From the NCBI GenBank assembly GCA_015490875.1, contig WFWZ01000129.1:1-64000 (forward strand): a stretch of 64,000 nt of DNA. The letters are read 5' to 3'. Position 1 is the stretch's first letter, and each line of letters opens with the position of its first letter. Of the stretch, positions 35,789-38,753 are shown piece after piece. Position numbers and translations under genes: made by a program. Origin of the DNA: Planctomycetaceae bacterium. GTDB lineage: Bacteria; Planctomycetota; Planctomycetia; Pirellulales; Pirellulaceae. A model generated the notes under the pieces. That model had not been told where the DNA came from. It ran no database searches and saw nothing but the letters and a program-made list of their open reading frames with translations.

Positions 35789-36118
35789 ATGTCGAACGTC
35801 GTCCATCTTACTGACGACAATTTCGAGTCGGAAGTGCTGCAATCGGACGTCCCCGTGCTGGTCGACTTTTGGGCTCCCTGGTGCGGACCCTGCCGCCAAC
35901 TTTCGCCGCTGATCGACGAATTGGCGGGCGAGACAGAAGGAAAGTATAAGATCGCCAAGCTGAACACAGATGAGGCTCAGCAGACGGCCTACAAATACCG
36001 TGTCAGCTCCATTCCCACGCTGATGGTCTTTAGTGGAGGCAACGTAGTGCAAACGCTGATCGGCGTGCAGCCCAAAGCGGCGATCTTGCAGGCACTCGAG
36101 TCGGCCGTCAACGCCTGA
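35789..36118 (+). CDS. trxA: Thioredoxin
   Basis: 109 residues from ATG at 35789, preceded by AAAAAGGAG. The redox motif WCGPC is at 31-35 within [11 protein letters not shown], and the cis-proline follows in [13 protein letters not shown]. It is a full-length cytoplasmic thioredoxin with no signal peptide. It is the likely substrate of trxB (6.2 kb). The next gene, 61 bases downstream on the same strand, is a peroxiredoxin with a selenocysteine-type codon; the two would form a reductant/peroxidase pair, although the peroxidase carries a signal peptide and may be exported. Confidence 0.95.
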
Positions 36119-36179
36119 CCGTCGCCAGCGGTGTGCGTCTTTCCTTGTCCCGAGTCTTTGGCTCTGGAGGATTCCCCTA

Positions 36180-36701
36180 ATGAAGATCTGGACTTTGGCA
36201 GCAGTGTTTGCCGCCACTTCGGTGGCCACGCTTGAGGCCGCACCACCGAAAGTCGGCGATCAGGCTCCCGATTTCGAACTGGTCGGAAGTGACGGAAAGA
36301 CTTACCGGCTGAGCGATTTCAAGGGAAAGAAAGGACTGGTGATCGCCTGGTTTCCCAAAGCGTTCACCGGCGGCTGAACGCTGGAGTGCAAGTCGCTCCG
36401 TGCGAGCGGCGATGCGTTGCGGAAGTACAACGTGGCCTATTTTGCGGCCAGTTGCGACGATGCCGAGACCAATCGGAAGTTCGCCGAGTCCTTGAAACTC
36501 GATTATCCCATCCTGAGCGATCCGGGAGGCAAAGTCGCCAAAGCGTTCGGCGTCTATTCGCCTCGCGGCTTCCCCAAACGTGTCACGTTCTACATCGACA
36601 AGGACGGCAAGATTGTGGCCATCGACACGAAGGTGAACGTGAGGCAGCATGGGGCCGATGTCGCCAAGCGGCTGGGAGAACTGGGCTTCGAGAAGCGATA
36701 G
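36180..36701 (+). CDS. Selenocysteine-containing peroxiredoxin (AhpC/TSA type), in-frame TGA at codon 66
   Basis: A single frame runs from ATG 36180 to TAG 36701 with one internal TGA (36375-36377, codon 66). Before it: signal-like [20 protein letters not shown], then [21 protein letters not shown] and [12 protein letters not shown]. After it: [58 protein letters not shown]. Peroxiredoxins have the peroxidatic Cys exactly where the TGA lies (PKAFTxGC), with Thr next; the resolving Cys may be C70 (UxxxC). A hairpin at 36392-36410 fits a SECIS element. The product would reduce peroxides using thioredoxin. A nonsense mutation is the alternative, but both halves are intact and in frame. Shown as one gene of 173 residues. 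Confidence 0.85.
36392..36410 (+). promoter_or_regulatory. Putative bacterial SECIS hairpin after the TGA codon
   Basis: GUCGCUC (36392-36398) pairs with GAGCGGC (36404-36410), including one G-U pair, around the loop CGUGC. The stem begins 14 bases after the TGA, and GU lies in the apical loop at 36400-36401. Bacterial SelB recognises such a hairpin just downstream of UGA. An outer CGC/GCG pair (36379-36381 with 36409-36411) may form alternatively. Confidence 0.7.

Positions 36702-36722: not shown

Positions 36723-38753
<2,031 letters not shown>

Follow-up and report, generated by a model that had tools for sequence, protein, structure and literature searches.

The window analyzed here is a 64,000-nucleotide stretch of contig WFWZ01000129.1 from a Planctomycetaceae bacterium (assembly GCA_015490875.1). 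On its forward strand, a single frame of 173 residues runs from 36180 to 36701 and ends at a TAG stop when an in-frame TGA is read as a residue. This TGA, the only one within the frame, is codon 66 (36375-36377, +). The ATG is preceded by a Shine-Dalgarno-like TGGAGGA (36165-36171, +). Translation under table 11 yields a 65-aa ORF (36180-36377) and a 94-aa fragment (36417-36701), which is how an earlier note on this DNA had expected automatic callers to split the gene. A trxA-like gene for a thioredoxin of the cytoplasmic type (WCGPC; 35789-36118, +) lies 61 bp upstream. Downstream is a convergent gene (36723-38732, -) whose product we take, from its sequence, to be the NAD-dependent DNA ligase LigA. 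The same gene is found downstream of the peroxiredoxin gene in L097, a metagenome bin of the Pirellulaceae and the nearest relative. UGA terminates other genes within the window, and a by-eye scan of the window for further TGA read-through frames gave just ordinary gene ends and antisense frames. An Rfam search of the window returned no match.

The product of the read-through frame belongs to the AhpC/TSA peroxiredoxins and is PrxQ/BCP-like by both profile and structure matches. The Pfam AhpC-TSA profile aligns to it with 118 bits over positions 1-123 of 124, so that both halves are part of one domain. The TGA thus does interrupt an otherwise intact peroxiredoxin at the codon of the peroxidatic cysteine, as the note had claimed, in the context TGGU (P-x-x-x-T-x-x-U). 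An AlphaFold2 model built from 24 orthologues has a mean pLDDT of 93.7, and the PDB structures closest to it are Bcp1 (3drn), BcpB, AhpE and PrxQ. The peroxiredoxin fold, the PxxxTxxC/U motif and the conserved arginine (Arg134) are all present, which by analogy with the family imply the usual peroxiredoxin chemistry. A second cysteine, Cys70 (TGC, 36387-36389, +), lies four residues past residue 66 and is invariant in the Sec and Cys orthologues of the alignment (A1). A resolving cysteine at CP+5 is a feature of many, but not all, BCPs, and the canonical BCP of the same genome has its second cysteine at +5 (TPGCTKEACAFRD). Cys70 is a candidate resolving residue at +4, one residue nearer than the canonical one. 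In the model, residue 66 and Cys70 both lie inside helix 64-75, so formation of a selenenylsulfide would need local unwinding. Such unwinding is known for PrxQ. One Cys orthologue (L088, genome G130) carries an in-frame insert of about 20 residues directly past the active site (SSFRVGPIEEGFTLELLGGRTFEVKPSKGS).

The first 21 or so residues (36180-36242, +) are hydrophobic and form a probable export signal. Hydrophobic N-termini occur in about 95% of orthologues, which suggests that the peroxiredoxin is exported, and this region of the model is of low confidence, as for a cleaved leader. The trxA-like gene had been read as part of the context of a thioredoxin-type peroxiredoxin. It does adjoin the gene in this window, but it was rejected as a conserved operon partner because no thioredoxin match was found beside the orthologue at any other locus examined. 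Moreover, the neighboring TrxA has no leader, whereas the peroxiredoxin appears to be exported, and a direct partnership between the two is unproven. For these reasons, reduction is more plausibly achieved through a membrane relay than by TrxA directly, and DsbD-type transmembrane genes are present in the genome.

The export, the unusual U-x-x-x-C spacing and the lack of any NCBIfam equivalog that scores the protein above its cut-off would also suit a selenoprotein that is not mainly a peroxidase, but an exported thiol or selenol oxidoreductase that uses the peroxiredoxin fold for another substrate. This reading is unlikely, since the PxxxTxxU site and Arg134 in a peroxiredoxin fold match those of peroxidases, with these residues in the roles established for the family. 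A role in peroxide defence, as proposed in the note, would likewise follow from family membership.

Orthologues were drawn from 147 genomes of the order and from 80 named loci of a public genome collection. The codon aligned to residue 66 is TGA in 18 and TGC or TGT in 38 of the order set, and TGA in 50 and TGC or TGT in 30 of the named set, with no TAA or TAG in either. The two sets overlap, in that some loci represent the same organism or near-copies with identical proteins. With one partial Cys row omitted from the tree, 135 orthologues remain, mostly from the Planctomycetota, Verrucomicrobiota and Acidobacteriota, and the codon is TGA in 68, TGC or TGT in 67 and TAA or TAG in none. Because the TGA recurs in the same column in 68 of these orthologues and is otherwise replaced by cysteine codons only, it is neither a chance event nor a read error, and its presence in independent genomes rules out the sequence error that the note had named as a possible refutation. 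The nearest relative, L097, is 73% identical over the full length and also has the TGA. Between the two, the segment past the TGA has a dN of 0.14, a dS of 1.68 and a dN/dS of about 0.08, indicating that it is translated and constrained. Loss of the second half, another outcome that would have spoken against the gene, was seen in none of the TGA homologues of the sets analyzed.

Additional evidence comes from a hairpin that begins 14 nt past the TGA (GTCGCTC-CGTGC-GAGCGGC; 36392-36410, +), with arms at 36392-36398 and 36404-36410 (7 bp) and the loop CGTGC at 36399-36403. In the window alone, the minimum-energy structure of this region differs from the hairpin and overlaps it, and its stability is no better than that of shuffled sequences (z -0.71). 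Since folding of the single sequence shows no excess stability, the case for a SECIS element is built on covariation, with the Cys orthologues as a matched control. Standard pairs fill 95.7% of the pair cells in a set of 40 distinct TGA sequences, while registers slid along the same sequences pair at 32-62%. Compensatory double changes occur in 32 cells of the TGA set against a shuffled mean of 7.2, and none of 500 shuffles reached this value. Some of the pair swaps in the stem are synonymous, such as TCG...AGC to TCA...AGT, and RNAalifold recovers the same helix when no structure is supplied. The loop follows the form CGUGN, with G at positions 2 and 4 in 57 of 57 distinct TGA sequences and T at position 3 in 54. 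In contrast, the hairpin has decayed in the Cys orthologues (n = 40), where, under equal coding constraint, only 66.1% of pair cells are paired. The median hairpin energies in the two sets are -8.75 and -8.0 kcal/mol for TGA and -2.3 and -1.9 kcal/mol for Cys. Based on this comparison, the hairpin is a putative bacterial SECIS element of the expected kind, to which SelB may bind.

The source genome (94.7% complete, 429 contigs) encodes the machinery for decoding UGA as selenocysteine, and all four of the genes that the note had proposed to search for were found. These are a tRNA-Sec on contig C397 (66.3 bits; called SeC with anticodon tca, or UCA, by ARAGORN), SelB on C85 (358 bits summed over the frame), SelA on C165 (570 bits) and two SelD genes (399 and 389 bits), both with an in-frame TGA in the GGGU motif. 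One of these SelD genes is closely followed by a gene for a SelL-related redox protein that also contains a TGA (HLAUIPC) and matches NF040769 above the cut-off (128.7 bits), so that the two form a selenoprotein pair (L092 2834-4448, C216). The second selenophosphate synthetase (L094 7827-8867, C223) brings the genome to two of the Sec type. Elsewhere in the genome, a HEAT-repeat and AhpC/TSA protein with an in-frame TGA at the redox position (IYGDTUPICHGQL; L091 8356-9414, C126) is likely another selenoprotein, and a deiodinase-like protein has a TGA at the deiodinase position (GCLTUPPF; L093 4726-5835, C319), with a weak match to T4_deiodinase.

Across the order, every one of the 18 genomes that have the TGA form carries a full-score SelA, as do 12 of the 37 Cys genomes for which the data are full (Fisher p 8e-7). 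This association is inflated by relatedness: when counted on starred branches only, there are three well-supported independent pairs, and SelA agrees in one or two of them and opposes in none. A TGA-bearing paralogue in G053, a genome without a full-score SelA, was considered as a counter-example and rejected, its catalytic site being an ordinary TGC in a canonical BCP context.

That cysteine works at the site in half of the orthologues would allow the UGA to be read through as cysteine or another amino acid by a near-cognate or suppressor tRNA. This is very improbable given that, in the order-level set, the TGA forms are confined to genomes with SelA, that the genome has tRNA-Sec and SelB, a conserved SECIS-type hairpin and further genes with TGA at a redox cysteine, SelD included, and that UGA still terminates other genes of the window. 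Cys orthologues that differ at the third base of the codon alone would suit a pseudogene or a sequencing error, in which a nonsense mutation or a misread TGC/TGT truncates an ordinary Cys peroxiredoxin. This possibility is refuted in practice by the recurrence of the TGA in the same column at 68 loci, drawn from many genomes and assemblies, without a single TAA or TAG, by the strong purifying selection past it, by the covarying hairpin and by the Sec machinery.

Taken together, the decoding machinery, the TGA orthologues, the covarying hairpin and the purifying selection past the TGA support the note's suggestion of a selenoprotein, and the gene almost certainly encodes a PrxQ/BCP-like peroxiredoxin with selenocysteine as the peroxidatic residue, which is probably exported and would follow peroxiredoxin chemistry. 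In the mechanism proposed for this selenoperoxiredoxin, SelB and Sec-tRNA(Sec) would bind the hairpin and decode the UGA, and the protein would then be exported. Sec66 would attack H2O2 or organic hydroperoxides to form a selenenic acid, which the invariant Cys70 could resolve as a selenenylsulfide following local unwinding of the helix. A thioredoxin-like reductant would restore the enzyme, perhaps via a membrane relay of the DsbD/CcdA type.

Sec and Cys have been swapped repeatedly in this family. On the best topology of the 135-row tree, at least 19 changes of the Sec/Cys label are required, four of which are forced by well-supported branches. The full 7-bp stem is retained past TGT or TGC in a few Cys orthologues (L060, L046 and L173), and SelA is still present in the genome of L060. 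These complete stems are apparent relics of a recent change from Sec to Cys. With so many matched Sec and Cys orthologues, some of the latter with apparent SECIS relics, Sec-to-Cys replacement becomes directly testable inside one enzyme family. In addition, callers cut the gene in two, and selenium-dependent peroxide defence is therefore probably under-annotated in these phyla. A broader view, held tentatively and at somewhat less than even odds, is that the orthologues make up an unnamed subfamily of exported peroxiredoxins that use a Sec-x-x-x-Cys pair lying inside a single helical turn and are fed by an envelope redox relay, with many Sec/Cys swaps across the Planctomycetota, Verrucomicrobiota and Acidobacteriota and readable SECIS relics.

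Among known systems, the BCP/PrxQ thiol peroxidases (NF006960; Sulfolobus Bcp1, 3drn) are closest by sequence and fold. NF006960 is the best NCBIfam match, but its 88.1 bits are under the 140-bit equivalog cut-off, and the protein differs from these enzymes in having Sec for Cys, a second cysteine at +4 rather than +5 and an export signal. PrxU of Eubacterium acidaminophilum, the first Sec peroxiredoxin to be characterized biochemically as cited in PMC13188914, likewise carries Sec as the peroxidatic residue of a peroxiredoxin with the AhpC/TSA fold, and the PxxxTxxU motif is listed for the TxxU family (PMC13188914). Unlike PrxU, the window protein is shorter, PrxQ-like and probably exported, and it scores 55.6 bits against the 270-bit cut-off of the PrxU equivalog (NF040737). 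Prx-SUH (NF045827) is also a peroxiredoxin selenoprotein, but its listed motif is CxxU rather than TxxU (PMC13188914), and the window protein was not matched by this model at E 0.001. The TxxU peroxiredoxin selenoprotein family has been reported to comprise 91 proteins from 78 organisms (PMC5029168). The 43 peroxiredoxin genes with TxxU from the Sargasso Sea (COG1225) resemble the window gene, judged by description, in their COG-level kind and in the position of Sec within the motif, and this set may include the window lineage, although the text of that paper names no Planctomycetes (PMC1088965). No specific description of a selenoperoxiredoxin from Planctomycetes (Planctomycetota), or of a CxxxC peroxiredoxin, was found in the open-access literature searched. 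The TxxU peroxiredoxins as a class are thus already known; no NCBIfam equivalog fits the present member, and its U-x-x-x-C spacing and probable export are less usual.
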